Positions 10,766-47,474 of a DNA stretch of 64,000 nucleotides are shown here, piece by piece (position 1 is the stretch's first letter; every line of letters begins with the position of its first letter). The notes below the pieces were generated by a model. The model did no database searches, was not told the origin of the DNA, and worked only from the letters and a program-made list of their open reading frames with translations. The position numbers were made by a program, and so were the translations under genes. Source of the stretch: a virus. Location: positions 1 to 64,000 of IMG/VR virus record IMGVR_UViG_3300011113_000123; one strand, written 5' to 3'.

Positions 10766-12292
10766 ATGTTTCTAGGATTCCTAGCAAGACCAACAAAAGT
10801 CGTTAATATCAGCAATGCTGCTAGTAACGTAAATCTCTACACTCAAGCGGGAAGTCCACCTTATCCGCTCAACTTGCTATGTTTTATCAACGCAGCCGTA
10901 TCATCTAACTCGCCCTCTACACCCGCGTTCGACGTAGGAACAGGATGGAGGGGTGGAACTTTCGTTTACGTTGATAACAACAATACGATCACTGGTCGAA
11001 TCGGAAATACAGGAAATCCAGGTAACACAGGTAATCCAGGAACTAATGCTCTACCTGGTGCACCAGGCAATCCAGGCAACACAGGAACTCCAGGCAACCC
11101 AGGATCAGCAGGGAATCCAGGAACAGCAGGCAATCCAGGCAATCCAGGAACAGCAGGTAATCCAGGTAACACAGGAACTCCAGGAAACAGCGGCGCTGGT
11201 GGAGCCGGTGCTGCTGGAAACACGACAGCCAACGGAAGTGCTGGCTCACCAGGAAACGCTGGTGGCCCAGGTGGAACTGGAAATAATGGCGGAACTGGTG
11301 GACCAGGGAATAACGGGGGAACAGGCAACTCTGGAATTCCAGGAAATCAAGGCGGTCCAGGTGGAACTGGTAATCCAGCTGGTGCAACTACTCCAGCGAA
11401 TCCAGGCGGACCAGGTAATGCTGGCGGCACAGGAGGAACAGGTGGAGCTGCGTTCGCTGTTCCTTCAGTGACTGGATTGATAACAGTTGTAGATAATGGC
11501 GGCGGTACATTCACTGGAGGAACTGGCGGTCCAGGCGGTCCAGGCGGTCCAGGAGGACCTGGTGGCGCTTTTGCTTTTGGTGCACCAGGCGGACCTGGGG
11601 GCCCAGGCGGTCCAGGAGGTCCTGGTGGCGCAGGCGGACCAGGTGGAGCCGGCGGACCAGGAGGCCCAGGTGGTGCGCGCGGACCTGGCGGACCTGGAGG
11701 TCCTGGTGGTTCTGGCGGCGGTGGCGGCGGTGGCTCAGCAGGAACGTATAGTGACGGTAAAGGCAGTAGCGATTCTGTTCGTCCTGGTGGCGGCGGTGGC
11801 GCAGGCGTACCAGGCGGCCCTGGAGGAGCTGGAGCCGGTGTTGGTGGAAACCCTGGCGCTGCAGGAACAGCTAATGCTGGTGGAGCTGGTGGCGTTCGAT
11901 CATTAGGTAATCCTGCTGAGCAGCGTTTTGGTGGCAATGGTGGAAACTTGGGTGCAGCGGGTAATCCTGGGCAAAACGCTGGTAATGGTGGTAGTGGGAG
12001 AACGCTTGGTGGTGGTGGTGGTGCTGCGGGCGCAACTGGACCAGCAGGAGCTCCAGGTAATGCGGGTGCTACTGGACCAGCAGGAACTCCAGGTAATGCG
12101 GGAACGCCTGGTTCTACAGGTCTTACAGGCGTTACAGGACCAACTGGACCTGGTGGTTTGTTTGCTCCAGCAGGATCGACAGGCCCAGCTGGCGCAACTG
12201 GTCCAACAGGATCACAAGGTAATGCTGTAACTGGCAACGCAAATATAACTAGATACATAGCAACAGGAACTAGAAACGGACCAATAGCATGA
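10766..12292 (+). CDS. Large collagen-like glycine-rich virion protein
   Basis: A 508-residue protein. The first ~70 residues are non-repetitive (head domain with [12 protein letters not shown]). From about residue 75 the chain is dominated by Gly-X-Y triplets ([28 protein letters not shown] types), interrupted by short Val/Ile-containing or poly-Gly segments, and it ends in a short non-collagenous tail. Asn and Ala are frequent in X/Y, with little Lys or Glu, unlike the second collagen-like gene at 34570. Phage collagen-like proteins are usually trimeric fibres on the virion. The stop overlaps the next start (ATGA). A long proline-rich frame on the other strand is only the mirror of the GGN/CCN codons. 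Confidence 0.7.
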
Positions 12293-12708: not shown

Positions 12709-13724
12709 ACATATTTTACTATGACGACAGCTTCAACATTTACAGAAACCAGCTTGACGCCATAGCTTCCAAAAAGCATTGTTGGTTATATTTTCATGAC
12801 AAGGAGATGGCTCTAGTTGATTGGAAAACAGAGCCATCTCAAACATTAGAACAACTCTATAAAGCTCGTGCAGAGTATATCAGAGACAATAACAAGTACA
12901 TTATACTATGCTATTCAGGTGGGCACGATTCAACCAACATTCTAGAAACTTTTTACTATAACAACATTCATATCGATGAAATCCTTGTTGTGGGTGCATT
13001 GTCGCAAGACTCTCACGAAGGAAGCGACGAAAATCATAATGGAGAGTTGTATAAAAACGTTTTCCCTACACTGAACAAGCTCAATTTACCTAACACTAAG
13101 ATAACGATCGCTGACTATACAAAATGGTTCAACGATCCTAATAACTTTTCGACGATTCGCTTATATGGTAACGAGTGGACTAAACATGTGGGTGGATTCA
13201 AGAGCGTGCATACTTTGTTTTGGCGTGATCTTAAGAAATTCGTTGGTCACGAAAACTCAAAGCAAACAGCATACATCATGGGTACTGATAAAGTCTATCT
13301 TAAATATCAAGTCAACGAACCATCTTATGTTAGATTCACAGATCTTTCGTTCTTTGATTACGGGTCAAACTACGAAGATGAAAACTTCAAGCGCATAAAT
13401 TTCTATACGGATGCTCATTCGACAGCGACTGATATTACTCGAAAGCAAGCACATGTTGTTAATAGATATTACAAATCGGGGCTAAACTTAGCTTTGTCTC
13501 ATACCAACTTGATAAACAAACTTTTATACAGTCTGCGAAATCCGTTGGTCTATATGTCGCCTAAATCAATATACACTTCGATCAGCGCACGAGATATGTT
13601 CATGCTCAACGCAAAAAACTCTGAGATGTACAGTATGTTTGCTGAAGGTGTTAAGACTATATCTAAATATGCGTCAGTTAAAGAAAAGCATAGCTTTTGG
13701 ACTAAACCCTATTATATCGAATGA
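12705..13724 (+). CDS. PP-loop ATP pyrophosphatase family protein A
   Basis: A 339-residue protein. Residues 66-77 (IILCYSGGHDST) form a PP-loop, SGGxDS at 71-76, preceded by a beta strand and followed by a helix. This is the nucleotide-binding motif of N-type ATP pyrophosphatases (asparagine synthetase B C-domain, QueC, TilS, NAD synthetase). Such enzymes adenylate a carboxylate or carbonyl and release pyrophosphate. There is no glutaminase domain and no obvious zinc CxxC motif. It is the first of three different PP-loop genes within 5 kb and is coupled by ATGA overlaps to both neighbours. The substrate is unknown. Confidence 0.65.
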   Translation: MNIFYYDDSFNIYRNQLDAIASKKHCWLYFHDKEMALVDWKTEPSQTLEQLYKARAEYIRDNNKYIILCYSGGHDSTNILETFYYNNIHIDEILVVGALSQDSHEGSDENHNGELYKNVFPTLNKLNLPNTKITIADYTKWFNDPNNFSTIRLYGNEWTKHVGGFKSVHTLFWRDLKKFVGHENSKQTAYIMGTDKVYLKYQVNEPSYVRFTDLSFFDYGSNYEDENFKRINFYTDAHSTATDITRKQAHVVNRYYKSGLNLALSHTNLINKLLYSLRNPLVYMSPKSIYTSISARDMFMLNAKNSEMYSMFAEGVKTISKYASVKEKHSFWTKPYYIE

Positions 13725-14167
13725 GCTACATCCTAGTTTTCCTATTATGGACATTCGTCATATACTGGATGCACAGGCTCGCGCACGTGCTCCCGTACAT
13801 GCGCGCGTATCACAACGATCATCATAAGCAGGTTACTCAGCAAACTATAACTGGTCTTAACTGGAAGAACGCTTTCCTATGGTTCGATACATGGGAAAGT
13901 ACAGTAGATCAGTGGCTCACAGAAGTCATTCCTACATTCATCCTTTCTGCTGTCACTGGTCACTGGTGGTTGTTTGTTGCATACTATGTGTGGGCTGCGT
14001 TTATTCAGGAAGCTATTGAGCACAATCCAAGAATCAATCTGTATCCATTCATCACTAGCGGTAAGTGGCATCTAGTTCATCACAAAGATCCTACTAAAAA
14101 CTACGGCGTGTTCATCCCAATCTGGGATGTGTTATTCGGAACGAAGTCTGATGGCTACAAAAGATAA
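13721..14167 (+). CDS. Fatty-acid hydroxylase/sterol desaturase-like membrane protein
   Basis: A 148-residue integral membrane protein. One membrane segment lies at residues 2-20 and one or two at 66-95. Histidine clusters match the di-iron hydroxylase superfamily: HRLAH (18-22), HNDHH (31-35), EH (100-101) and HLVHH (117-121). Members use a di-iron centre to hydroxylate or desaturate lipids or carotenoids in the membrane. It is shorter than most family members (usually over 200 residues) but keeps all the His boxes. It overlaps the preceding PP-loop gene by four bases and the next by 17 bases. The substrate is unknown. Confidence 0.7.
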   Translation: MSYILVFLLWTFVIYWMHRLAHVLPYMRAYHNDHHKQVTQQTITGLNWKNAFLWFDTWESTVDQWLTEVIPTFILSAVTGHWWLFVAYYVWAAFIQEAIEHNPRINLYPFITSGKWHLVHHKDPTKNYGVFIPIWDVLFGTKSDGYKR

Positions 14168-14909
14168 CTGGCTTGTGACTAACATAAAGACGAGGCTTAC
14201 TGATCCAACTATAGATTTTAAAGTAGGTCATAGGGTCGAGAGACTTGAGCGATTGTCTTGGGAACAAGCCCTGCTCAATACGATTACAGATTTTGAGCAG
14301 ATATCTAAGAAGCTGTATATTCCACTAAGCGGTGGGATGGATTCAGAGTTTGTGTTTAATTGTCTTAGACATCTTAATCCAACTCCTATCATAGTAGACA
14401 CCCCAGCTAATAAACTAGAATCTGCTTATGCATTTCACTATTGTAGGAAACATAATCTAACGCCTGTTGTTCTAGAACGATCTGAGTATGATTTGCTTCG
14501 CGTCTATATTGAAGATATCTTTACGAAGATAAATGGTGTAGGAGCTAGCTCAGTCGCATCATTATTGGCAGCCAAGTACGCTGAACAAAATGAAGGCGTT
14601 GTTGTAATAGGTGAGCACGCATACGACGGTGTCAGTGAATGGGATTTCTATAATGATGCGCTGATTCATGAACTCAACAGCGCATACTTCTTTATGTGGA
14701 CTCCTGAATTGGTTGATGCTATGCAACGAGAATATCGTGGCGAAGATCATCAAGAGTTTAAGCATAGATTGTATGAGATTCCCTACAGACCTAAGATGAT
14801 CTATCAATACAGCGATGCGTTTGAAAATGTGCTGCGGAATTTGAACGAAGCTAGAAAATCAAGACCAAACACGAAAAGCGAAATCACATTTAATGTAGGA
14901 AACGATTAA
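14151..14909 (+). CDS. PP-loop ATP pyrophosphatase family protein B
   Basis: A 252-residue protein. ATG 14151 is chosen over ATG 14127 because GGAACGAAG lies upstream and the overlap with the hydroxylase gene is smaller. The PP-loop SGGMDS is at 60-65, inside KLYIPLSGGMDSEFVFNCL, followed by a Rossmann-like strand (PIIVDTPANK). The arrangement resembles the synthetase domain of asparagine synthetases without the amidotransferase half. It is not a close copy of the PP-loop proteins at 12705 or 15857. The stop overlaps the next ATG (TAATG). The reaction is unknown; ATP-dependent adenylation is inferred from the motif. Confidence 0.65.
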   Translation: MATKDNWLVTNIKTRLTDPTIDFKVGHRVERLERLSWEQALLNTITDFEQISKKLYIPLSGGMDSEFVFNCLRHLNPTPIIVDTPANKLESAYAFHYCRKHNLTPVVLERSEYDLLRVYIEDIFTKINGVGASSVASLLAAKYAEQNEGVVVIGEHAYDGVSEWDFYNDALIHELNSAYFFMWTPELVDAMQREYRGEDHQEFKHRLYEIPYRPKMIYQYSDAFENVLRNLNEARKSRPNTKSEITFNVGND

Positions 14910-15826
14910 TGAAGTTTATACTTTTATCATTGTTGCTGATGATAGTCAATCCTGCGTTGGCTAAAGAAACAGTAACCGTATATTCTAAGTTCAATCTTAC
15001 AGATGTTGGATCACGACAGATCGATGCGTTCGTAGATATGTTGAATCAGAATAGCAATAAGTACGAGTTCAGAATAAGATCATTGCCTGGCGCATTTGGC
15101 GAAGCATCAGTTCGTCGATCTATAGTGGATGCTAGATCAGGCGTCAAGGTTCTATTGTTCAATACGGTTGATATCGTAACGGTGCTCAAAGAGTTAGAAA
15201 ATAAGGACCCCGATTTTGTTTATGATAAAAGCGTTGATCTAATACCATTACAGGGCATTTCGTCGACGTTTCATGGATTGTTTGCGCGCCCTGAAATTGG
15301 TGACATAGATTCACTGATCGTTCAGCTCAGAAAAGAGCCGCAGTTTTTCTATGGATATACGTCAAACGCAGTAGTACCAAAGTTGTCTGCGGATTCATTT
15401 ATCAAGCATCACAAGTTGACTAACGGTAAGCTCGTTCTATACAAAAGTCAATCTGATCTTGAGCTAGCTGTTCTGAACGGAGAAATTAGGTTTGCTGTTG
15501 GGAGCGTGACACAAGCTATCAGCGATAACAATCTTAAGCTGTTGTTGAGTACAAGTAAATCTAGGAGCCAGTTCTATCCAGAAACTCCAACGGGTATCGA
15601 AAAGGGTGTACTGAACTTTAAATATAACGCGCAAACAGTTTTGTTTATTCCTAAAGAGCTTGCTGCATTTGGGCAAGAAATGTCTGCAACCCTGAAATCC
15701 GTATGCGACAGTCGTGAATATGGTAAGATACTGACTTCGCTCAGAAGAACCCAAAGCTGTTTGACTAGCGATCAGCTGAAAGAATTTATCGAAGAAGAGT
15801 ATGGTTGGTATCTAGCTAATAAATAG
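14909..15826 (+). CDS. Exported solute-binding-like protein, distant Bug/TctC type
   Basis: A 305-residue protein with a signal peptide (residues 1-18, ending NPALA before KETV). The mature part alternates strands and helices in a periplasmic-binding pattern. A Pro-Gly-x-x-Gly turn (PGAFGEASVRRS) followed by a region about phage-time values ending in residues like FIPKEL is reminiscent of Bug/TctC receptors. The resemblance is weaker than for 18314-19303. If correct, it would bind a small carboxylate in the periplasm. No transporter membrane subunits are present in the window, so it may act as a scavenger or decoy. Two cysteines near the C-terminus (CDS, SCL) could form a disulfide. Confidence 0.45.
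   Translation: MKFILLSLLLMIVNPALAKETVTVYSKFNLTDVGSRQIDAFVDMLNQNSNKYEFRIRSLPGAFGEASVRRSIVDARSGVKVLLFNTVDIVTVLKELENKDPDFVYDKSVDLIPLQGISSTFHGLFARPEIGDIDSLIVQLRKEPQFFYGYTSNAVVPKLSADSFIKHHKLTNGKLVLYKSQSDLELAVLNGEIRFAVGSVTQAISDNNLKLLLSTSKSRSQFYPETPTGIEKGVLNFKYNAQTVLFIPKELAAFGQEMSATLKSVCDSREYGKILTSLRRTQSCLTSDQLKEFIEEEYGWYLANK
15818..15825 (+). promoter_or_regulatory. Variant late promoter AATAAATA
   Basis: AATAAATA, one change from TATAAATA, ends 31 bases before the ATG at 15857. It overlaps the last codons of the preceding gene. The same variant occurs before 44025. Confidence 0.45.
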
Positions 15827-17025: not shown

Positions 17026-17637
17026 TTAGATGAACTTGGGTCCAAGGCACCATACAACCAATGACTTACGATTACCTTTAGTTACTGGCGTCACACGATG
17101 AATCATAAAGGACGGGAAAAGAACAGCCCGTCCTTTATGCATTGGGACTATCAGCGGTGTTTCTTCCTTACCGTTATTGATTTGAAACTCACCACCCTCA
17201 AAATCATCGTTGAGCGCGAGCGAAAGTGACAGCTTACGCGGCTCTGCATCGTTACCAAACTTTTCACCAAACGTCATATCTGTGTGCCAGTCGTATCGAC
17301 CATTCGAGTCGTAGGTTGTATACTGGAACGAATCATAACCATTCAGGTGAAAGTTATAGAACTGTTCGTTTGCAGCCTGAATGATAAAGTTCAGCTTATC
17401 AAAAATCCACGCCGTATTTTCGTTTCTTTCATGAAACTTGACGTTCGACACGCGATGCTTCTCGATGTCTTCTTTTGATTGAGCACCAAACGTAACACCT
17501 TGCTCTGTACCAGATGAATCGCAATAATCAACAATAGCCTTGAGTTCTTCATCAGTAAACGCGCCGTCCCAAGTCACATAAGGGAACGTGATCTGCGAAC
17601 GCTGCCAGGGATTATTGTATATTGTCGTGTATGTCAA
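17026..17637 (-). CDS. 2OG-Fe(II) oxygenase, PKHD/prolyl-hydroxylase type
   Basis: A 203-residue soluble enzyme. The iron ligands are visible as H118 and D120 (in RYDWHTDMTFG) and H180 (in FPSFMIHRV). R190 in NRKSLVVW is the expected 2-oxoglutarate ligand, and GGEF precedes the distal strand. This is the layout of the 2OG-Fe(II) oxygenase superfamily, which couples 2-oxoglutarate decarboxylation to hydroxylation of protein or small-molecule targets. Such genes are frequent in T4-like cyanophages. It is the last gene of the minus-strand operon and overlaps 17634-18317 by four bases. Confidence 0.8.
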   Translation of the reverse strand: MTYTTIYNNPWQRSQITFPYVTWDGAFTDEELKAIVDYCDSSGTEQGVTFGAQSKEDIEKHRVSNVKFHERNENTAWIFDKLNFIIQAANEQFYNFHLNGYDSFQYTTYDSNGRYDWHTDMTFGEKFGNDAEPRKLSLSLALNDDFEGGEFQINNGKEETPLIVPMHKGRAVLFPSFMIHRVTPVTKGNRKSLVVWCLGPKFI

Positions 17638-18317
17638 AACTGTCTCCAGTTGCTTACAGGTTGAATACCAAGCGGGCTTGCTGTTTTATTTTTGTATGTG
17701 AGAACGACGTCTGCCGCAAGACATATACGATTTTCGTTTAGTTCTGCGAATGTAGGATTGCCTTTATCCTCACCATTCGTTTGACCAATCGTATCGTGTG
17801 GGAGCGTAGAAGGAAACACTAGCAGCTGCCCCTCGACTGGCTCAAACTGCCATGTGTATGCGTTGAACCAATCCCACGTATCGTTTTTATTATTCCATCT
17901 GATTGAGCCTGGATATGGCTCATGACGACGTTCATAGTTGAAGAAACGGATTGGGCGAACGAACGTCGTCGGAACATTTACGTAGTAAGTGAACGACACG
18001 TGTGCGTCCCCATGCGCGTGATACGGCGTTGAGTCGTCCTTCTTGATATTCATCCACGTCTTCACGAGATTGAACTCAAACTTATCCGTGTCGATGTGTA
18101 GTCGCCTTACGTATTGCTTCACGCAGTCGATAGCGAACGTGAAGAACGGATTGAACGACTCTTCATGATGGATATTGACGTGACCAGTGAACTCGTTAGA
18201 GTAACCTTCTGGCGTCATGTAGTTGAAGATCTTCTGATAAAATAGATCTTTGAACTGATCTTTCTTATCGTAATGGAACTCGCATACTAGGGTAGGGAAT
18301 AGAGCATGTTCAATCAT
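17634..18317 (-). CDS. Putative 2OG-Fe(II) oxygenase, second type
   Basis: A 227-residue protein. PYHAHGDAHVSFTYYVNVP at 98-116 supplies an H-x-D pair (H102, D104). EGQLLVFPSTLPHDT supplies H174, and the late Arg of NRICLAADV (R197) fits the co-substrate site. This order matches the PF13759-like oxygenase group (His-rich motif, then aromatic strand, then FPS-x-L-x-H). It is not a duplicate of the neighbouring oxygenase. It overlaps both neighbours by four bases, so three minus-strand genes appear translationally coupled. The target is unknown. Confidence 0.65.
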   Translation of the reverse strand: MIEHALFPTLVCEFHYDKKDQFKDLFYQKIFNYMTPEGYSNEFTGHVNIHHEESFNPFFTFAIDCVKQYVRRLHIDTDKFEFNLVKTWMNIKKDDSTPYHAHGDAHVSFTYYVNVPTTFVRPIRFFNYERRHEPYPGSIRWNNKNDTWDWFNAYTWQFEPVEGQLLVFPSTLPHDTIGQTNGEDKGNPTFAELNENRICLAADVVLTYKNKTASPLGIQPVSNWRQF

Positions 18318-19303
18318 TTTTCACTCTGTAGCGATCTGAGTTTATTTAATACTGATGCTGATGCGTTCGCAGAAGTAGCTATGATTTGCTCGGCTTGTTC
18401 GCCTGTGATGAGCTGAACTTCCATCCTTGATTTAGTCGCTTCTGCTATGTATGCTGGATCATTTACCGCTTTATTGAATGCTTCGCGTAACTCGCGAACT
18501 CTGGCTGCTGGAACGCCTGGAGGAGCGATGAATGGTCTCAGTAGAATGAACTGCGTTTCGAAGATATCGAGGATAGCAAGATCTTCTTCGTTCGTAATTA
18601 GCTCAGCGAATGTAGGTACATCCTTGAAGTCTGGATGGCGAATCTTAGCGTTACCAAATTGCATCAGCGCGCGGATGCCGCTGTTAGATTCTGTCCACTG
18701 TGTCTGTGTTCTGATTCCTAATAGATTGAAGATAACTGCATCAACTTCTTTGCGTTCCAGAGCTAGTCGAGCTGCACCTGGGTTAGCGTATCCCGCAATC
18801 TGTCTGAAGTTGAGCCCTAACGAGTTTCGAATGAACTTCGTCGAGTCAGCCGATACGATACTCTCAGTGCCGACGATCAGTTCTTTTGTCTTAAACTCGC
18901 TCAGAGATTCTGTCCTGTGGGTCCATACAATGACTGCATCTTTACGCCCATCAACGGTAGACCCTAGCCAGTTGAACTTGGTAGGGTCAAACATAATCGT
19001 AGGACCACCCAAGATACCTACGAGCGGAATGTTCTTATACACTGTAGCAATCGTTCCGCCGTCGCGTGGGGCTACGTTATACATGTAATTTGTAGCGACC
19101 AAGCTAGACGCTCCAGGCATAACTTGAATGACTGGAGAAGGTTTTTCGGGAAGATATTTGGCTATGTGTGGGGCTATGATTCTAGCATTGATGTTATAGC
19201 TATCTGCAGGCGAAGGGGTAATAATACGCAGTTCTTGCGCCATCGCACTCGCAGATAGCGCCAAAAACAAAACTAATGATCTAATCATATTATTATATAG
19301 CAT
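18314..19303 (-). CDS. Tripartite tricarboxylate transporter-type binding protein (Bug/TctC family)
   Basis: A 329-residue protein with a signal peptide (LVLFLALSASAMA before QELRI). Typical Bug features are present: a PGASSLVATNYMYNVAPRDGGTIATV block near the N-terminus, GYANPGAARLALERKEVDAV mid-protein and PPGVPAARVRELREAFNKA near the C-terminus. Bug proteins capture carboxylates in the periplasm for TctAB transporters and are abundant in alpha- and betaproteobacteria. An alternative start at 19288 (MIRSL) would give a tighter signal peptide; neither start has an ideally spaced ribosome site. It is the first gene of the minus-strand operon. Very unusual cargo for a T4-like phage. Confidence 0.8.
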   Translation of the reverse strand: MLYNNMIRSLVLFLALSASAMAQELRIITPSPADSYNINARIIAPHIAKYLPEKPSPVIQVMPGASSLVATNYMYNVAPRDGGTIATVYKNIPLVGILGGPTIMFDPTKFNWLGSTVDGRKDAVIVWTHRTESLSEFKTKELIVGTESIVSADSTKFIRNSLGLNFRQIAGYANPGAARLALERKEVDAVIFNLLGIRTQTQWTESNSGIRALMQFGNAKIRHPDFKDVPTFAELITNEEDLAILDIFETQFILLRPFIAPPGVPAARVRELREAFNKAVNDPAYIAEATKSRMEVQLITGEQAEQIIATSANASASVLNKLRSLQSEK

Positions 19304-19307
19304 CCTT

Positions 19308-19315
19308 ACTAAATA
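19308..19315 (+). promoter_or_regulatory. Possible degenerate late promoter ACTAAATA
   Basis: ACTAAATA lies 24 bases before the ATG at 19340, in the 36-base gap between divergent genes. The identical octamer precedes the tail tube gene (32086-32093), so it may be a weaker late element for the curli locus. Two mismatches to TATAAATA make this tentative. Confidence 0.35.
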
Positions 19316-19339
19316 GAATCGTAACCGAAAGGATCGACG

Positions 19340-19618
19340 ATGGACTTTTTCAAGCTCGTTGCCGAGGTTGGTTTTCCTATAGCATCTGCAATAGCAGGCG
19401 GATATTTTGTTTTCCTCACGCTTAAGTTTATTCTAGCTGGTGTTATGTCGAGTGTCAAGGGCCTTTCAGGAATTATCATGGCCCTGGATAATCGCGTAAA
19501 GACCATGAATCACGACGTCATTCGTATTGACACATTGGTTTCCAATGCGCTTGGTTTGAAGCCAGACACGGATCGTATAGCCCGTGCTGATGGTAAGAAC
19601 GACGCAAGGAGAGACTAA
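19340..19618 (+). CDS. Small membrane protein, holin-like, copy 1
   Basis: A 92-residue protein with one N-terminal membrane segment (about residues 9-34, GFPIASAIAGGYFVFLTLKF), then an amphipathic helix and a charged C-terminus. It shares GFPI, a Gly-Tyr/Phe-rich membrane segment and an I-x-AL-x-x-R-x-x-x-x-x-x-D-x-IR pattern with the next gene, so the two arose by tandem duplication. The architecture (one membrane helix plus amphipathic helix) resembles BhlA/UviB-like holins, but no assay-type evidence exists in the sequence. The ribosome site is AAAGGA. It overlaps the next gene by one base. Confidence 0.5.
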   Translation: MDFFKLVAEVGFPIASAIAGGYFVFLTLKFILAGVMSSVKGLSGIIMALDNRVKTMNHDVIRIDTLVSNALGLKPDTDRIARADGKNDARRD

Positions 19619-19917
19619 TGACTGGCGAAATCGTTAACCTGATTAATAAGTATGGCTTCCCTATCGTGGCTGCTGGCGGAATGGGTTATTTGATTTTCTA
19701 TGTGTGGAAATGGGCCACGCAAGAAATCAAACCAGTTCTGTCAGAAGCAAATACAGTTCTGATCGCATTGATTGATCGTATTCGTATGTTGGATAACGAT
19801 CTTATTCGCCTTAATCAAAAGGTTAATGTCGTATTAACATTACGACAGAAACAAATCGAGGAGATGAAAGATGCTCAGACTAACGACGATAGCGGTGCTG
19901 ATAAGCCTAAGCAATAG
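19618..19917 (+). CDS. Small membrane protein, holin-like, copy 2
   Basis: A 99-residue paralogue of 19340-19618. It has a membrane segment at about 12-34 (YGFPIVAAGGMGYLIFYVWKW), then a coiled-coil-like helix (ALIDRIRMLDNDLIRLNQKV) and an acidic tail. The start ATG overlaps the previous stop (TAATG). The last 47 bases overlap csgF in another frame. Being first in the curli-like operon, the pair could be lysis proteins or inner-membrane partners of the secretion apparatus. Function inferred. Confidence 0.5.
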   Translation: MTGEIVNLINKYGFPIVAAGGMGYLIFYVWKWATQEIKPVLSEANTVLIALIDRIRMLDNDLIRLNQKVNVVLTLRQKQIEEMKDAQTNDDSGADKPKQ

Positions 19918-20314
19918 TTCGTTCGCTTCTGAATTGCAATTTGGCTTTAAGAGTCCTGCGTTTAACGGCGTAGGATACTCTGCTCACGTTCTAACCATTG
20001 AGAATCTCGAACACACGCGTCGTCAGAAGATCTTTGACGATGCGAAAGCTGCTGCGGCTAAAGAAGCAGCAGATGCTAAGAATACGAACTTAGCTAAGTT
20101 TCTAAACAACTTGGAAAGTCGTATCTATGCTACGTTATCACAGAAGATAGCAGAAGAGCTTTTCAAGGATGGTGGGAACACGACAGGCACGTTTGATGTG
20201 GCGGGTAATAACATCTATTGGTCCAGCACTGGGTCAACGATTACGCTACGCATCACAGATCCTGCGGGTAAGGTAACGGAAATAGAAGTTCCATACGGGA
20301 GCTTGGCATGGTAA
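19871..20314 (+). CDS. csgF: Curli assembly factor CsgF
   Basis: A 147-residue exported protein. The signal peptide ends SSFA before SELQFGFKSPAFNG. The mature N-terminus (LQFGFKSPAFNG) matches the conserved CsgF beginning (an xFxFxNPxFGG-type sequence) that inserts into the CsgG pore. It is followed by a helical region ending in a stretch like FLNNLESRIYATLSQKI and a C-terminal strand repeat with TLRITDPAGKVTEIEVP, as in CsgF. CsgF caps the outer-membrane channel and helps nucleate curli. GAGGAG precedes the start, and the end overlaps csgG by seven bases, which supports joint function. Confidence 0.85.
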   Translation: MLRLTTIAVLISLSNSSFASELQFGFKSPAFNGVGYSAHVLTIENLEHTRRQKIFDDAKAAAAKEAADAKNTNLAKFLNNLESRIYATLSQKIAEELFKDGGNTTGTFDVAGNNIYWSSTGSTITLRITDPAGKVTEIEVPYGSLAW

Positions 20315-21114
20315 AAGCACTAAGTGTAATTGTAGCAAGTTTGTTGTTAGCTTCTTGCGCGACTCAAGAAAATACGAAAGATCGCATCGAAGCGATGTCC
20401 GAACCTGCGGAAATCATTACACGCAAACGTTCCAACGAGCTGATGAACTTACCGCCGCTCGATGGTCCAAAGATTCCGATTGCTGTGTATCGTTTTCCAG
20501 ACATGACAGGACAACGTAAGCCAGCTACGAACTTTGCAAGTTTAAGTTCTGCTGTCACGCAGGGAGCGGAAGTGTTTCTGTTCAAGGCGCTTCATGATGC
20601 AGGAAGAGGGCAGTGGTTCCAAGTCGTAGAACGTTCTGCTCTAGAAAACTTAGTTAAGGAACGACAACTGATTCGCTCGCAGCGTGAGCTGTATGAAAAG
20701 GATCAAGCCAAGCCACTGACGCCACTTATCGTGGCAGGTATCATGCTAGATGGTGGAGTCGTTGGATATGATTCTAATATAGGAACTGGAGGTATTGGCG
20801 CTCGACTACTGGGCGTTGGTGCTACACAAGAATACCGTAAGGATGAAGTCACTGTTGTATTGCGCTTGATTTCCGTAAACACAGGCGAAGTTCTGCTATC
20901 AACTGGCGCATCCAAAACGGTTTTGAGTACGGGAGCAGGGGCTAACGTATTTAAATTCATTGATGTCGGAACTAAATCCGTAGAATTTGAAGCTGGATCG
21001 ACAATCAATGAGCCAACAACTTACGCTGTACGAATCGCAATCGAGGCAGCGGTGGCCGATATGGTAAAAGAGGGAGCTAAGAAAAAGCTCTGGAGCTACA
21101 AGAAAACGAGGTAA
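20308..21114 (+). CDS. csgG: Curli secretion channel lipoprotein CsgG
   Basis: A 268-residue protein. A lipoprotein signal ends at LLLASC with the lipidation Cys at residue 17. The mature chain follows CsgG closely: IPIAVYRFPDMTGQRKPATN, a QGAE-x-x-LFKAL helix, WFQVVERSALENLVKERQLI, then AGIMLDGGVVGYDSN, GGIGARLLGVGATQEYRKDEV, VSVNTGEVL-type strands and SKTVLS. Size and order match the family (about 260-280 residues). In bacteria nine copies form a 36-strand outer-membrane pore that exports curlin. It overlaps csgF and is followed by a curlin-repeat gene. No csgE is seen nearby. Confidence 0.92.
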   Translation: MVKALSVIVASLLLASCATQENTKDRIEAMSEPAEIITRKRSNELMNLPPLDGPKIPIAVYRFPDMTGQRKPATNFASLSSAVTQGAEVFLFKALHDAGRGQWFQVVERSALENLVKERQLIRSQRELYEKDQAKPLTPLIVAGIMLDGGVVGYDSNIGTGGIGARLLGVGATQEYRKDEVTVVLRLISVNTGEVLLSTGASKTVLSTGAGANVFKFIDVGTKSVEFEAGSTINEPTTYAVRIAIEAAVADMVKEGAKKKLWSYKKTR

Positions 21115-21120
21115 CAACCA

Positions 21121-21798
21121 ATGAGAATTCCGAGTCTGACATTCTTGTCATTCTTGGTCATGGTTGGAAATGCAAACGCTCAACCCAATACTGTGTATGT
21201 GGAGCAAATAGGTTCAGGATCAACGATTAACTTTACACAAACGGGAACAGGTAACGCGATTGGAAATTCAACAGCGAAAGCTGTTGTGAATGGCAACAAC
21301 AATACGATCACTGTAGAACAGATAGGAAATACCAACGTCGCTGCTCTCAATGCAGTCGGCGCTGGTATGAACATATCTTCTATCACTAACGGAAACGGAA
21401 ACTCTGTTTCTATCGACTGTGGATCATCTGGCGATTGTACTGGATCAACGATCTCGAACACAATCACTGGTAACGGTAACTCATTAACCACAAACTCCGA
21501 CAACTTGATTGATTCTACTGTGACTATCAACTCTGATAATAACACGGTAACGATCGACAACACGTCAACAGCGGTGAGCGGTGCTAAGTCTAAGATTGAC
21601 ATTAGCGGTGGTAACGGTAACACAGTCGCGCTCACGCAAGCGGGAGCAGCTGGAACTAACGGACACGACGCTGAGGTTAATATCTCAGGTGCTACCAACA
21701 ATGTTCTAGTAAAGCAAGGTGGAAACAATGATTCCATGGTCAACGCTACAATCATTGGTTCTGGTAACACTCTGTCTATTAAGTCCAACTTACAGTAA
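21121..21798 (+). CDS. Curlin-repeat amyloid-like protein (CsgA/CsgB type)
   Basis: A 225-residue protein with a signal peptide (ending NANA before QPN). The mature part is built of Asn/Gly-rich strands with curlin-like units of the form N-x-x-x-V-x-Q-x-G-x-x-N: NTVYVEQIGSG, NNTITVEQIGNTN, NTVALTQAG and NNVLVKQGGNN. The intervening region (GNGNSLTTNSDN and similar) is a looser Asn/Ser/Thr ladder. One Cys pair lies in DCGSSGDC. Directly behind csgG, this is the expected exported subunit. It could be a curli-like fibre or a beta-solenoid adhesin. The next gene starts inside its 3' end in another frame. Confidence 0.75.
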   Translation: MRIPSLTFLSFLVMVGNANAQPNTVYVEQIGSGSTINFTQTGTGNAIGNSTAKAVVNGNNNTITVEQIGNTNVAALNAVGAGMNISSITNGNGNSVSIDCGSSGDCTGSTISNTITGNGNSLTTNSDNLIDSTVTINSDNNTVTIDNTSTAVSGAKSKIDISGGNGNTVALTQAGAAGTNGHDAEVNISGATNNVLVKQGGNNDSMVNATIIGSGNTLSIKSNLQ

Positions 21799-22828
21799 TG
21801 CTTCTGTAGGTACGGTAACAGAACAGACAGGACCGACCGAAATAAAACGTCAGACGAATGTGATTCTCAGCGCCAGGGATACTGGCGTTGAGATGCAAGA
21901 TGTTATTACGACTGCGAACGCGAAAGCGAACATCACATTCAAAGACGACACCAAGGTACAAATCACAGAACATTCTAGGCTTGTTATCGACAACTTCGTC
22001 TACGACGATAGTAAGAAAACTGGTAGGCTCGGAATGAAAATGGCGTTGGGTACTATCAAGTATGCCAGTGGTCAGATAGCGAAAGCTAATCCTCAACAAG
22101 TAACAATCGAAACTCCTACTGCGACCATCGGCGTTCGTGGTACGGACTTTTCTGGGACCGTAGATGAGATTGGGCGTTCGACTATCATTCTCCTTCCTTC
22201 ATGCCCAGTCGGATGGAGAAACATTCAGCGTGATTGTGTGGTAGGATCTATTACGGTTACAACGGATATGGGAACCGTGGTACTCACTCGTGCGTTTGAA
22301 GCGGTGAACGTACAAACGCGAATGGCCCAACCCAAATCGTCGATACTGAATCTTTCGCTGGATCAAATTAATAATCTAATCATCGTAAGTCCGCCAGCCT
22401 CTGTGCGAACAGAAACGGCTGCTGTTCGCACAAGAAACTTACTCGACGATGACCTTTTAGGTAAAGATTTTCTAAAGTACGATGAGCTCGACAAGAATCA
22501 GCTCGACGAGTATCGAAAACTAGATGAAAACTTTTTGGATAAAGACTATCTCTATAACTTTCTAGACGTAGCTGGTACGCAACTATTGACTAACGAGCTC
22601 GCTGAGTTCAATGCAATGTTACCTAAATATGACGCAAGGAGTGGGCTAAAGTATTTCGTAGAAAACGATGCAGTCACATTGTATCGTGAAACTGTGAATG
22701 CGTTCGCCAGCGTTACTGTGCCAATGTATGATAGCATGACTTTGCGATTGAGTCAAGAAGGCTTGGAAATCAAACAAATCGTTAACTCAGCCGGAACAAC
22801 AACGATCACTATTAGACAGAGTAACTAA
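21728..22828 (+). CDS. Exported FecR-domain protein
   Basis: A 366-residue protein. I chose ATG 21728 rather than the GTG at 21719 because it opens a clean signal peptide (MIPWSTLQSLVLVTLCLLSP, cleavage near YSNA). Residues 25-160 form a FecR domain (PF04773 type): GTVTEQTGPTEIKR, DVITTANAKANITFKDDT, ITEHSRLVIDNF and the hallmark TPTATIGVRGTDF. The remainder is acidic and helical with a repeated L-D-x-x-x-LD pattern (DELDKNQLDEYRKLDE). Unlike classical FecR it is exported and lacks an N-terminal anti-sigma region. Its first 71 bases overlap the curlin gene. FecR proteins often sit beside CHASE2 cyclases, as here. Confidence 0.8.
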   Translation: MIPWSTLQSLVLVTLCLLSPTYSNASVGTVTEQTGPTEIKRQTNVILSARDTGVEMQDVITTANAKANITFKDDTKVQITEHSRLVIDNFVYDDSKKTGRLGMKMALGTIKYASGQIAKANPQQVTIETPTATIGVRGTDFSGTVDEIGRSTIILLPSCPVGWRNIQRDCVVGSITVTTDMGTVVLTRAFEAVNVQTRMAQPKSSILNLSLDQINNLIIVSPPASVRTETAAVRTRNLLDDDLLGKDFLKYDELDKNQLDEYRKLDENFLDKDYLYNFLDVAGTQLLTNELAEFNAMLPKYDARSGLKYFVENDAVTLYRETVNAFASVTVPMYDSMTLRLSQEGLEIKQIVNSAGTTTITIRQSN

Positions 22829-22830
22829 TC

Positions 22831-23094
22831 ATGAAATCATTACTAGCTCTGCTTTTCTTAACGATTTCTGCTAATGCGCAGCAGATCAATAACGCAACAG
22901 TGAATGTAATCGGAAACAATCAGAATGTTATTATTAATCAATCTGGCGTTGGTCACAACGCTAATCTTAATCTTTATGGCAATGACATACCTGTTAGTGT
23001 TACTCAGTCAGGCTCTACTCCGCAGTCTTTTAATCTTAGCATTACCTGCTATAGCAATTGTTCTAACGCTCCAACTGTGGTTAATCAATACTGA
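22831..23094 (+). CDS. Short curlin-like exported protein
   Basis: An 87-residue protein with a signal peptide (MKSLLALLFLTISANA, then QQINN). The mature 71 residues contain NNQNVIINQSGVGHNANLNL and DIPVSVTQSG, two curlin-style N-V-x-Q-x-G units, and a C-terminal part with two cysteines. It may be a nucleator or minor subunit (CsgB-like role) for the larger curlin at 21121, but the role is inferred. It starts two bases after the FecR stop and ends two bases before the cyclase start. Confidence 0.6.
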   Translation: MKSLLALLFLTISANAQQINNATVNVIGNNQNVIINQSGVGHNANLNLYGNDIPVSVTQSGSTPQSFNLSITCYSNCSNAPTVVNQY

Positions 23095-23096
23095 CA

Positions 23097-25160
23097 ATGG
23101 AAAAAATTGGTCAATACCTAACAAGCACATGGTCAGCTGTTATCTCAGCGATAATCCTGCTGGGCGTATATGTGTGGAATCCCAGCGCCGTTGAGATACT
23201 AAGGCTGAAGACGTTCGACTATCTCATATCGACGTTACAGCCTAAAGAGTCAGAAGAAATCATCATCGTCGAGTTTGGTGAAAAGTCCGTAGAGCGATTT
23301 GGTCAGTGGCCATTCGATAGACGCGATATCGCTAAAACTGTTCAAGCCCTTCGTGAGAACGATGCTGGCGTTATTGTTGTTCCCATCCTTATGTCCGAGA
23401 AGGACAGAGCTGGTGGTGACGCAAAGTTAATTGAAACGATCAAAGATAATGGAGTAGTCCTTGCTCAAACCCCTACTAATCAAAACACTAAGCCTGATGC
23501 AGTACGCCGCGGAGTCGCTGCTATCGGTCCTACTGATCCTCGCAGCTATACTTTTCGCTGGAACGGTGGATTACGCCCTCTGGATGAGTTGGCAGGGTCT
23601 GCTCAAGGGGTCGGGGTTCTCGCTTCTGTCCCCGAAGTCGATGGTGTTGTTCGTCGTCTCCCTCTACTTGTTACTATTGCAGGCAATCTGTATCCATCTC
23701 TACCTATTGAAGCGATTAGAGTTTGGTCCGATGATAAAAGCTATCAAGTCAAAACTAGCGAAGCGGGAATAGAGTTCGTACGCATTCCAGCAGTTCCACC
23801 TATCGCTACAGACGAGCGCGGTAGAGTATGGCTATCATGGAATAACAAGTTTACTAGAATCGACGCAACAGAAATAGATCAGAGAGTTCAAGGAAAGCTA
23901 GTCATCCTTGGCGTCTCGATTGAAGGTGTCGGCGGGATTATCGGCACCCCAGCGGGCGAAAAGTGGAGTCATGAAGTTCAAGCATCTGCGTTGCAAACTT
24001 TGATAGATGGATCGTCGATAACACGAGTGTCTTTTGCGACGATAGTCGAGCTGCTCGTTCTATCTGGTATGCTAGGATTATTGCTTGTTCTTGTGCCAAG
24101 AACGTCTGTTTTATGGACTGCGCCATTATATCTAGCATTTATTGGGATCTCCGCATATGGTTCGTACTACATGTTCAAAGAACATATGCAGCTCTGGGAT
24201 GCCAGTTATTTATTGTTAGCAGGCACAGCGAGCTTTGGTCACTTAGTATATAACAACTTCGCTCGCGAGAACAGACTGAAACTACAAATCAAAAAGCAGT
24301 TCGGAACGTATCTGTCACCAGCGATGGTCGAAAAGCTGCAACAGAATCCTGACCTACTCAAGTTAGGTGGAGAGACTCGCGAGCTTTCAATTATGTTCAC
24401 TGACGTTCGCGGCTTCACTGCTATCAGCGAGCATTACGGAAGCGACGTTCAGGGATTGACGCGCATCATGAATCGTTATATGACAGCGATGACTCAAAAG
24501 ATCCTTGAGAATAACGGAACGTTGGATAAGTACATTGGCGATGCGCAGATGGCATTTTGGAACGCACCCCTAGACGATCGCGATCACGCTAAGAACGCAG
24601 TCAAAACTGCATTGGAGATGTTAGATGACTTGGATAGATTCAATAATGAGATCTCTGTGGAAGGAGTTCCCCCGTTTGGTATGGGTCTCGGTATTAACTC
24701 TGGTTCTGTGGTCGTTGGTAACATGGGCAGCTCTCAGCGTTTTGATTATACATGCCTTGGTGACTCTGTAAATCTAGCTTCACGTCTCGAAGGTCAGTCT
24801 AAGCCCTATCACGTCAAGATGATCATTGGCGAACGTACCGCTGAGCTTCTGAACGGCGACTATCCGCTCGCAGAGCTAGATTGCATCGCGGTCAAAGGTA
24901 AAACTAAAGGCGTCAAGATATACACGATCGTTCCAGGAACAGGCATACAGCGCGAGCATCTCAAGAATCACAACAAGTTCATAAAGGCTTATCGATATCA
25001 GGACTGGGAGAACGCTCTATTCTATTTGAAGATTCTTAGAGGCGCGTTCAACAAAGAACTCGACGAGTACTATGCTATGATGGAGGAGCGTATCGCAGAA
25101 CTACGCGTCGCTGATTTGCCTAAAGATTGGGATGGCGTATACAGGGCTACATCGAAATGA
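23097..25160 (+). CDS. CHASE2-domain class III adenylate cyclase
   Basis: A 687-residue inner-membrane protein. An N-terminal membrane helix (about 11-28) is followed by an extracytoplasmic CHASE2 domain (about 35-305, with FGQWPFDRRDIAKTV and GGIIGTPAGEKWSHEVQASAL), three membrane helices (about 310-385) and a cytoplasmic class III cyclase domain (about 400-610). Catalytic residues are intact: metal ligands D436 (FTDVRGFT) and D482 (YIGDA), adenine-site K478 and T552, and N559 and R563 (VNLASRLE). The K/T pair favours ATP, so the product should be cAMP. CHASE2 senses an unknown periplasmic signal. It is the last gene before the late promoter of gp13. Confidence 0.9.
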   Translation: MEKIGQYLTSTWSAVISAIILLGVYVWNPSAVEILRLKTFDYLISTLQPKESEEIIIVEFGEKSVERFGQWPFDRRDIAKTVQALRENDAGVIVVPILMSEKDRAGGDAKLIETIKDNGVVLAQTPTNQNTKPDAVRRGVAAIGPTDPRSYTFRWNGGLRPLDELAGSAQGVGVLASVPEVDGVVRRLPLLVTIAGNLYPSLPIEAIRVWSDDKSYQVKTSEAGIEFVRIPAVPPIATDERGRVWLSWNNKFTRIDATEIDQRVQGKLVILGVSIEGVGGIIGTPAGEKWSHEVQASALQTLIDGSSITRVSFATIVELLVLSGMLGLLLVLVPRTSVLWTAPLYLAFIGISAYGSYYMFKEHMQLWDASYLLLAGTASFGHLVYNNFARENRLKLQIKKQFGTYLSPAMVEKLQQNPDLLKLGGETRELSIMFTDVRGFTAISEHYGSDVQGLTRIMNRYMTAMTQKILENNGTLDKYIGDAQMAFWNAPLDDRDHAKNAVKTALEMLDDLDRFNNEISVEGVPPFGMGLGINSGSVVVGNMGSSQRFDYTCLGDSVNLASRLEGQSKPYHVKMIIGERTAELLNGDYPLAELDCIAVKGKTKGVKIYTIVPGTGIQREHLKNHNKFIKAYRYQDWENALFYLKILRGAFNKELDEYYAMMEERIAELRVADLPKDWDGVYRATSK

Positions 25161-25168
25161 TATAAATA
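25161..25168 (+). promoter_or_regulatory. T4-type late promoter TATAAATA
   Basis: An exact octamer immediately after the cyclase stop, 26 bases before the gp13 ATG at 25195. It separates the curli-like locus from the conserved structural operon. Confidence 0.8.
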
Positions 25169-25194: not shown

Positions 25195-25938
25195 ATGGCA
25201 ACAATATCATCAAGACAAGCATTTAAGGACTATGTTCTGCGCCGTCTTGGCTATCCAGTAATCGACATTAACGTAGACGACGAGCAGGTAGAAGATCGTA
25301 TCGACGATGCCCTGCTCAAGTTCCGCGACTATCACTACGACGGATCAGAGCACGTTTACCTGCCGTATCAGGTTACAGCTCAAGATAGAGTTAACAAGTA
25401 CATCACGCTACCTGAAGAAATCATTGGCGTGACTCGTATTTTTGATATCAACGATTCATACAATGCGATGAATCTGTTCAATATCCGTTATCAGCTTCAC
25501 CTTAACGAACTGTTTAACATTTCCAGCGTATCGGTTACACCATACGTTGTTGCGATGCGTCACATCGAGTTTCTCGAGGAAGTGTTCGTAGGTAAGAAAC
25601 CTATCCGTTTCAATCGTCACATCGACAGGCTCTATATCGACATGAAATGGGACGAAGACGTACAGGTTGGTCAGTTCATTATCATCGACTGTTATCGCGG
25701 CGTTGATCCAGAAGTTTACACTGACGTCTGGAATGATAGGTGGCTGAAGCAATATGCGACTGCGCTTGTTAAACGTCAGTGGGGTGAGAACCTTAAGAAG
25801 TTCGAGGGTATGAATCTTCCAGGCGGCATCACGTTCAATGGTCAAAAGATCTGGGAAGAAGCGACTGCAGAAATCGAAAAGATGGATTCAGAAGTTATCA
25901 ACAACTACTCGCTACCAGTCACTGATATGATCGGATAA
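25195..25938 (+). CDS. 13: Neck protein gp13 (head completion)
   Basis: A 247-residue protein. ATG 25195 is chosen because it follows the late promoter and GGAG, and the N-terminus (ATISSRQAFKDYVLRRLGYPV then INVDDEQVEDRIDDAL) matches T4-like gp13. An upstream in-frame extension would cross the promoter. gp13 with gp14 closes the portal after packaging and forms the tail attachment site. gp14 begins two bases downstream. Confidence 0.88.
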   Translation: MATISSRQAFKDYVLRRLGYPVIDINVDDEQVEDRIDDALLKFRDYHYDGSEHVYLPYQVTAQDRVNKYITLPEEIIGVTRIFDINDSYNAMNLFNIRYQLHLNELFNISSVSVTPYVVAMRHIEFLEEVFVGKKPIRFNRHIDRLYIDMKWDEDVQVGQFIIIDCYRGVDPEVYTDVWNDRWLKQYATALVKRQWGENLKKFEGMNLPGGITFNGQKIWEEATAEIEKMDSEVINNYSLPVTDMIG

Positions 25939-46935: not shown

Positions 46936-47474
46936 TTAACAAACCTAAAGCCAAGAAGCACTACGTAAACAACAAGGATCTGTATGATGCTATGGTTGCG
47001 TATAAGGCTCAAGTGAACGAGAACAAAGAAGCTGGAAAGCAAGCACCACGTATTCCTCACTACATCGGTGAGTCGATTATGAAGATTGCAACACATCTTG
47101 CCTATCGTCCAAACTTTGCAAACTATACGTTTCGCGAAGAGATGATCTCTGACGGTATCGAGAACTGTTTGCTATACATCAATAACTTTGATCCAGCTAA
47201 GTCGCAGAATCCTTTCGCATACTTTACGCAGATCATCTACTTCGCTTTCATTCGACGTATTCAGAAAGAAAAGAAGCATCTCTATACGAAGTATGCAGCC
47301 ATCGAGTACGCTAACATCATGGGAGAAACGTCCGAGTCTCAGGGAGGTGATAGCGGATCATACGATACTGATATCAAGTATGGTGAATGGTCCAAGGAAC
47401 AGATGGAGAAGTTCATGGCTGACTTTGAGACTAGTAAGGGTATCAAGCGCGGAAGTAAGAAAGCTGCATCATGA
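46932..47474 (+). CDS. 55: Late-transcription sigma factor gp55
   Basis: A 180-residue protein starting at TTG overlapping the previous stop (TTGA); the next ATG would delete the conserved N-terminus. It contains the sigma region 2-like core: IMKIATHLAYRPNFANYTFREEMISDGIENCLLYINNFDP followed by NPFAYFTQIIYFAFIRRIQKEKK. T4 gp55 is 185 residues and binds host polymerase core to recognise TATAAATA elements, many of which are visible in this window. The C-terminal tail should bind the gp45 clamp or co-activator. Confidence 0.92.
   Translation: MINKPKAKKHYVNNKDLYDAMVAYKAQVNENKEAGKQAPRIPHYIGESIMKIATHLAYRPNFANYTFREEMISDGIENCLLYINNFDPAKSQNPFAYFTQIIYFAFIRRIQKEKKHLYTKYAAIEYANIMGETSESQGGDSGSYDTDIKYGEWSKEQMEKFMADFETSKGIKRGSKKAAS

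Follow-up and report, generated by a model that had tools for sequence, protein, structure and literature searches.

A candidate late-transcribed curli secretion and display module in tailed phages

In this study, we analysed a stretch of 64,000 nucleotides (nt) of DNA from a T4-like bacteriophage, called the window below (positions 1-64,000 of IMG/VR record IMGVR_UViG_3300011113_000123; the full virus record has 157,580 bases), which carries a set of genes related to curli (type VIII) secretion. Eight open reading frames (ORFs) lie on one strand at 19340-25160, overlapping or almost abutting each other, and all of them were found where an earlier note made from the sequence alone had placed them. 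The first two, s1 (19340-19618, +) and s2 (19618-19917, +), encode paralogous small membrane proteins of 92 and 99 amino acids (aa), and s1 has a single hydrophobic segment and an amphipathic tail. They are followed by csgF (19871-20314, +), csgG (20308-21114, +), cur1 (21121-21798, +), fecR (21728-22828, +), cur2 (22831-23094, +), and a gene for a CHASE2 - class III adenylate cyclase (23097-25160, +). The start of fecR is probably the ATG at 21728. A T4-type late-promoter-like motif, ACTAAATAG, is located at 19308-19316 (+), about 24 nt 5' of s1. At the other end, the motif scan found the late promoter motif of gp13, TATAAATA, at 25161-25168 (+), which bounds the module where the structural genes begin; gp13 itself probably starts near 25197, 3' of its own motif.

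The Pfam search agreed with the identities proposed in the earlier note for CsgF (PF10614, 2.7e-16), CsgG (PF03783, 7.5e-54), FecR (PF04773, 5.2e-12), CHASE2 (1.2e-35), and the cyclase domain (Guanylate_cyc, 2e-22), and all of these matches were above the gathering cut-off. CsgF has a signal peptide and, in the alignment, a conserved F-x-[NS]-P-x-F-x-G N-terminus. CsgG is an outer-membrane lipoprotein pore with the lipobox Cys17, and it also matched the CsgG structure 3x2r in the PDB (4e-66). PDB sequence searches with CsgF and s1/s2 returned chance-like matches only. In this family, CsgG is the outer-membrane pore and is capped by CsgF. A CsgG pore, CsgF, and a curlin substrate, three components of type VIII secretion, stand side by side in the window.

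The curlin identity of cur1 and cur2 stood by family profile and predicted fold, but not by single-sequence Pfam scores, which are given below. The profile of the exported cur1 protein and its homologues matched a solved curlin-repeat protein (8c50, 7e-12) and a major curlin subunit (8enq, 4e-5). In addition, the AlphaFold model of cur1 was a confident all-beta repeat (predicted local distance difference test score 86.5); cultured-phage rows were excluded from the alignments used for structure models. A Foldseek search with this model found no solved relative with a significant match. The cur2 product is an exported mini-curlin of 87 aa with a Cys pair, and it is longer in many relatives. The conserved Cys pairs of cur1 (Cys100/Cys106) and FecR (Cys159/Cys170) would fit an oxidising compartment after export.

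All eight genes, including the 87-aa cur2, are under purifying selection (dN/dS 0.02-0.17 where computable, window versus three relatives). The gene order was kept in the phages HTVC008M and Melnitz and in many IMG/VR contigs. An assembly chimera, which the earlier note had named as a possible refutation, is ruled out because cultured phages and many independent contigs contain the same block, and over 100 viral contigs have the module. The CsgG search and the s1 search each gave more than 500 confirmed stretches among the matches listed, and contigs among these matches reach 338-364 kb. The core order csgF-csgG-curlin-fecR was almost constant in the fetched loci, and usually a second curlin and the cyclase came next. 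Both curlin and fecR were present in 105 of the 105 csgG loci with adequate flank, and csgF in 103 of them. Where flanks of 8 kb were available, the cyclase accompanied csgG in 28 of 29 loci and s1/s2 in 25 of 29. The six records of at least 38 kb in which s1/s2 and the cyclase were seen without csgG in the flank that was fetched all carried csgG elsewhere in the record. Tested in reverse, the s1/s2 pair was present in four of six records longer than 40 kb; the other two were without it and may be fragments. The s1/s2 pair is tightly linked to the curli module, and the two go together as if the pair were dedicated to it.

Parts of this gene set have been reported before. Genes for csgF and csgG were found in pelagimyophages, for which "sibling capture" was proposed (PMC7029224, 2020), and in the OM43 phage Melnitz, for which a lysis-timing pore was argued (PMC9004378, 2022). 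The impression in the earlier note that these genes had not been seen together with curlins, FecR, and a cyclase is outdated, because the whole set csgF-csgG-csgA/B-FecR-csgA/B-cyclase, behind one or two genes labelled as histidine kinases, was described in pelagiphages (PMC9599517, 2022). This pelagiphage module has the same genes in the same order, and HTVC008M and Melnitz, the latter with both curlins, FecR, and the cyclase, are equivalent to the window gene by gene. However, the G+C content is 45% in the window and 33.5% and 36.9% in the HTVC008M and Melnitz loci, and the second curlin has 87 aa in the window versus 341-441 aa in the published module. Furthermore, the window module adjoins gp13 directly, unlike the published one. 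Promoter or nucleator analysis is absent from PMC9599517. The gene set is already known, and the late promoters, the curli-like tail of FecR, and the two small membrane proteins appear to be newly described.

For S-PM2, a marine T4-like phage, the late promoter motif has been published as NATAAATA, which resembles TATAAATA of T4 (PMC2984593). We searched for late-type motifs ([ACT]TAAATA allowed) at most 80 nt upstream of genes and compared the results with shuffled sequence. Identical upstream stretches were counted once, and related sequences are non-independent, so the following counts are not strict probabilities. The motif preceded the leading member of the s1/s2 pair in 100 of 136 cases and a leading csgF in 47 of 67 (70-74%, versus about 12% in shuffles), and 12 of 14 gp13 genes also had it. 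It was scarce 5' of most internal genes (0-7%; csgG, 0/129; second gene of the s1/s2 pair, 0/136; fecR, 3/121; curlins, 14/211), and a csgF lying behind s1/s2 had it in 8 of 61 cases. The rate for the cyclase (30/122) is consistent with a separate transcription unit where the cyclase stands apart. We infer that the window motif at 19308-19316 is a working promoter. The record encodes a gp55-like late sigma factor (46941-47318, +; 60% identical to gp55 of Melnitz, E 8.5e-49), which would recognise such promoters, and no second sigma-70-type match was found in it. In a scan for sigma-70 promoters, the module did not exceed shuffled sequences. Because late motifs precede the unit leaders and gp55 is encoded in the record, the module is probably expressed late.

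The two small membrane proteins were called holin-like in the earlier note. They are indeed small membrane proteins, but the holin label is weakly supported: the best PHROGs match of both is one family of unknown function, phrog_18771, and the holin family phrog_4898 matched 10 of 18 s1/s2 family members with an E value of 1e-4 at best, with no Pfam holin family. This match is too weak for s1/s2 to be accepted as proven holins. From their position, s1/s2 seem to be the genes published as "histidine kinase" (PMC9599517). No HisKA or HATPase domain was found in the 18 members, and a histidine kinase identity is rejected for this reason. The position of the pair varies among loci: it may lie upstream, behind the cyclase in convergent orientation, or between fecR and the cyclase, or it may be split around csgF.

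These data bear on a lysis-timing function, in which CsgG/CsgF would be a gated outer-membrane pore, s1/s2 the holins, and the curlins and FecR the gate, close to the pinholin/secretin proposal for Melnitz (PMC9004378). The late motifs, the short membrane proteins with their phrog_4898 match, and the loss of the Tyr found at the constriction of E. coli CsgG, which is missing from all 84 parsed phage CsgGs, speak for it. However, the holin match is weak, and the CsgG of a Polaromonas bin likewise has no constriction Tyr, so the loss is not phage specific and alone is no sign of a new pore function. Moreover, curlins and fecR, present in every csgG locus with adequate flank and under purifying selection, would be superfluous for a bare pore. 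We regard this function as unlikely, although it is the strongest of the alternatives to curli display.

The exported FecR protein offers a further clue to curli display. In its model, a signal-type helix at the N-terminus and the FecR domain are followed by a beta domain at the C-terminus, and a curlin-like repeat lies within roughly the 65 C-terminal aa. A pattern like x-hydrophobic-x-Q-x ... V-N-x-G-G-x-x-I-x-I-x-Q was seen at the C-terminus of nearly all phage FecRs. In profile-profile comparison (hhalign), the tail matched the last curlin repeat with P 5e-5, versus 0.15-0.56 for reversed and other-region controls. Foldseek also matched the model, less strongly than in the best matches given below, to 5ix9, a "cell surface anchoring domain" (E 0.036; 62 columns; target TM-score 0.74). 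The curlin-like tail was absent from the bacterial FecR relatives sampled; two of the eight scanned had RTX repeats, one of them with cadherin-like domains too. Since the tail is present in phage FecR and in none of the sampled bacterial relatives, we propose from this modest sequence evidence that phage FecR may be a CsgB-like fibre anchor or nucleator. An anti-sigma regulator is disfavoured by the architecture, in which a short N-terminal hydrophobic helix runs straight into the FecR domain, unlike in a FecI/FecR pair, where a cytoplasmic anti-sigma part and a transmembrane segment come ahead of this domain, and by the absence of a partner: no cognate extracytoplasmic function (ECF) sigma factor was found in the record, where gp55 was the sole sigma-type match.

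Compared with the enterobacterial csgBAC/csgDEFG system, the phage module has CsgG, CsgF, and curlin repeats in common. However, CsgE was not found in the phage record; FecR, the CHASE2 cyclase, and s1/s2 are added, and the FecR tail is proposed to replace CsgB. Among 337 alphaproteobacterial genomes, five had a CsgF match, one of them under the cut-off. The other four loci (L236-L239) share csgF, csgG, and adjoining curlins with the phages, but fecR, the CHASE2 cyclase, and s1/s2 were not found within the about 7 kb fetched on each side. Thus, whole copying of the module from bacteria is not supported, provisionally, as the bacterial sample is small. FecR lay near a gene matching the CHASE2-cyclase model in four sampled alphaproteobacterial loci (L243, L248, L249, and L252). 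The Burkholderia BiofilmReg operon, which controls biofilm, also has an exported FecR-domain protein beside a CHASE2 membrane sensor (PMC5192318); it differs in that the sensor is a histidine kinase, FecR carries LysM, and curli genes are absent. Because bacteria pair FecR with CHASE2 sensors, while the sampled alphaproteobacterial csgF loci are without fecR, the cyclase, and s1/s2, the module in the phages resembles a curli operon into which a FecR/CHASE2 signalling pair and the phage-specific s1/s2 have been merged. In addition, contigs binned as bacterial metagenome-assembled genomes (L185-L191 and L196; Rhodobacteraceae, Flavobacteriaceae, Pelagibacter, and Pirellulales) look like misbinned module-carrying phage contigs, and they could mislead bacterial curli searches.

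The window cyclase has the class III residues (the metal-binding Asp pair, the substrate Lys, and Asn/Arg). The cyclic AMP (cAMP)-linked sensing suggested in the earlier note is plausible in so far as this motif set is intact, but no cyclic nucleotide (cNMP)-binding protein that could serve as a phage cAMP receptor was found in the phage record. Therefore, any cAMP effector must be a protein of the host.

Taken together, we somewhat favour the explanation that these genes form a phage-encoded, self-contained curli secretion and display module that is transcribed late. The idea in the earlier note that the phage encodes an amyloid or outer-membrane pore system is thereby supported. CsgG would make the outer-membrane pore and CsgF would cap it. 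The products of cur1 and cur2 would be exported and, judging from their repeat family and predicted fold, may form amyloid-type fibres. Like CsgB in E. coli, FecR may dock into or seed the fibre through its curlin-like tail and tether it to the envelope. From the inner membrane, the CHASE2 cyclase would face the periplasm that holds FecR. Because of the constant linkage and the bacterial FecR/CHASE2-sensor pairs, the cyclase and s1/s2 probably link cAMP in the infected cell to the state of the fibre/FecR or of the envelope. With late promoters, the output would come close to the time when virions assemble and leave the cell: cells or debris made sticky may keep neighbours near the burst, or superinfection may be blocked. 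An amyloid coat that serves superinfection exclusion or receptor masking and not sibling capture (PMC9599517) would have an identical anatomy. Late expression is tardy against superinfecting phages, yet it could protect the progeny yield; we consider this variant improbable.

Several observations weigh against curli display. The Pfam curlin repeats score 0.0014 and 0.064, under the cut-off singly, and the curlin model gave only a modest match on FecR tails (median 5.1 bits, versus 0.3 for shuffled tails). The best Foldseek matches of the FecR model were anti-sigma FecR domains (E ~1e-4). The transition-state Asn of the cyclase is Ser in many relatives, Melnitz included, and no clumping was seen in Melnitz cultures (PMC9004378). 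Finally, CsgE (PF10627) was not found in the 157,580-base record, with a positive E. coli control; CsgE increases release but is dispensable (PMC7029224). Its absence also favours uptake, in which, during infection, a CsgG pore that is open without CsgE would admit larger molecules to the periplasm and CHASE2/FecR would act as sensors (PMC7029224, PMC9599517). Two TctC-type periplasmic binding proteins encoded near the module (18314-19303, -, and 14909-15826, +; Pfam 5e-10 and 1.4e-6) point the same way, and several relatives have one or two copies. However, TctC genes are absent beside the module in many relatives, the late promoter placement leaves little time for nutrient gain, and the conserved curlins are left unexplained. 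We consider uptake improbable.

Other neighbouring genes were also recorded. Two adjacent 2OG-Fe(II) oxygenase genes (17026-18317, -) stand beside the module, as in many close relatives. At 10766-12292, a collagen-repeat protein is encoded in a local G+C peak (53%); the product of 13721-14167 belongs to the fatty-acid hydroxylase family. In one related locus (L030), an apparent tRNA 3' end (GGGTTCGACTCCTTCCACTGGTGCCA) lies just upstream of csgF, suggesting a tRNA gene beside the module.

More broadly, and tentatively, a late operon that shows amyloid on the dying cell may be shared by many lineages of tailed phages, jumbo-sized contigs among them, with a phage-specific FecR-curlin fusion that nucleates the amyloid and a private membrane circuit of s1/s2 and the CHASE2 cyclase that tunes it. 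This would be a virus-assembled, rewired curli system and not a borrowed host operon. What had been a published but unexplained list of genes now has specific parts that can be tested: the late promoters, the FecR-curlin tail, and the s1/s2 pair. Should the fibres be real, extracellular amyloid would be a means by which viruses steer where progeny land or whether rivals infect, and this would matter for aquatic phages of very high abundance.

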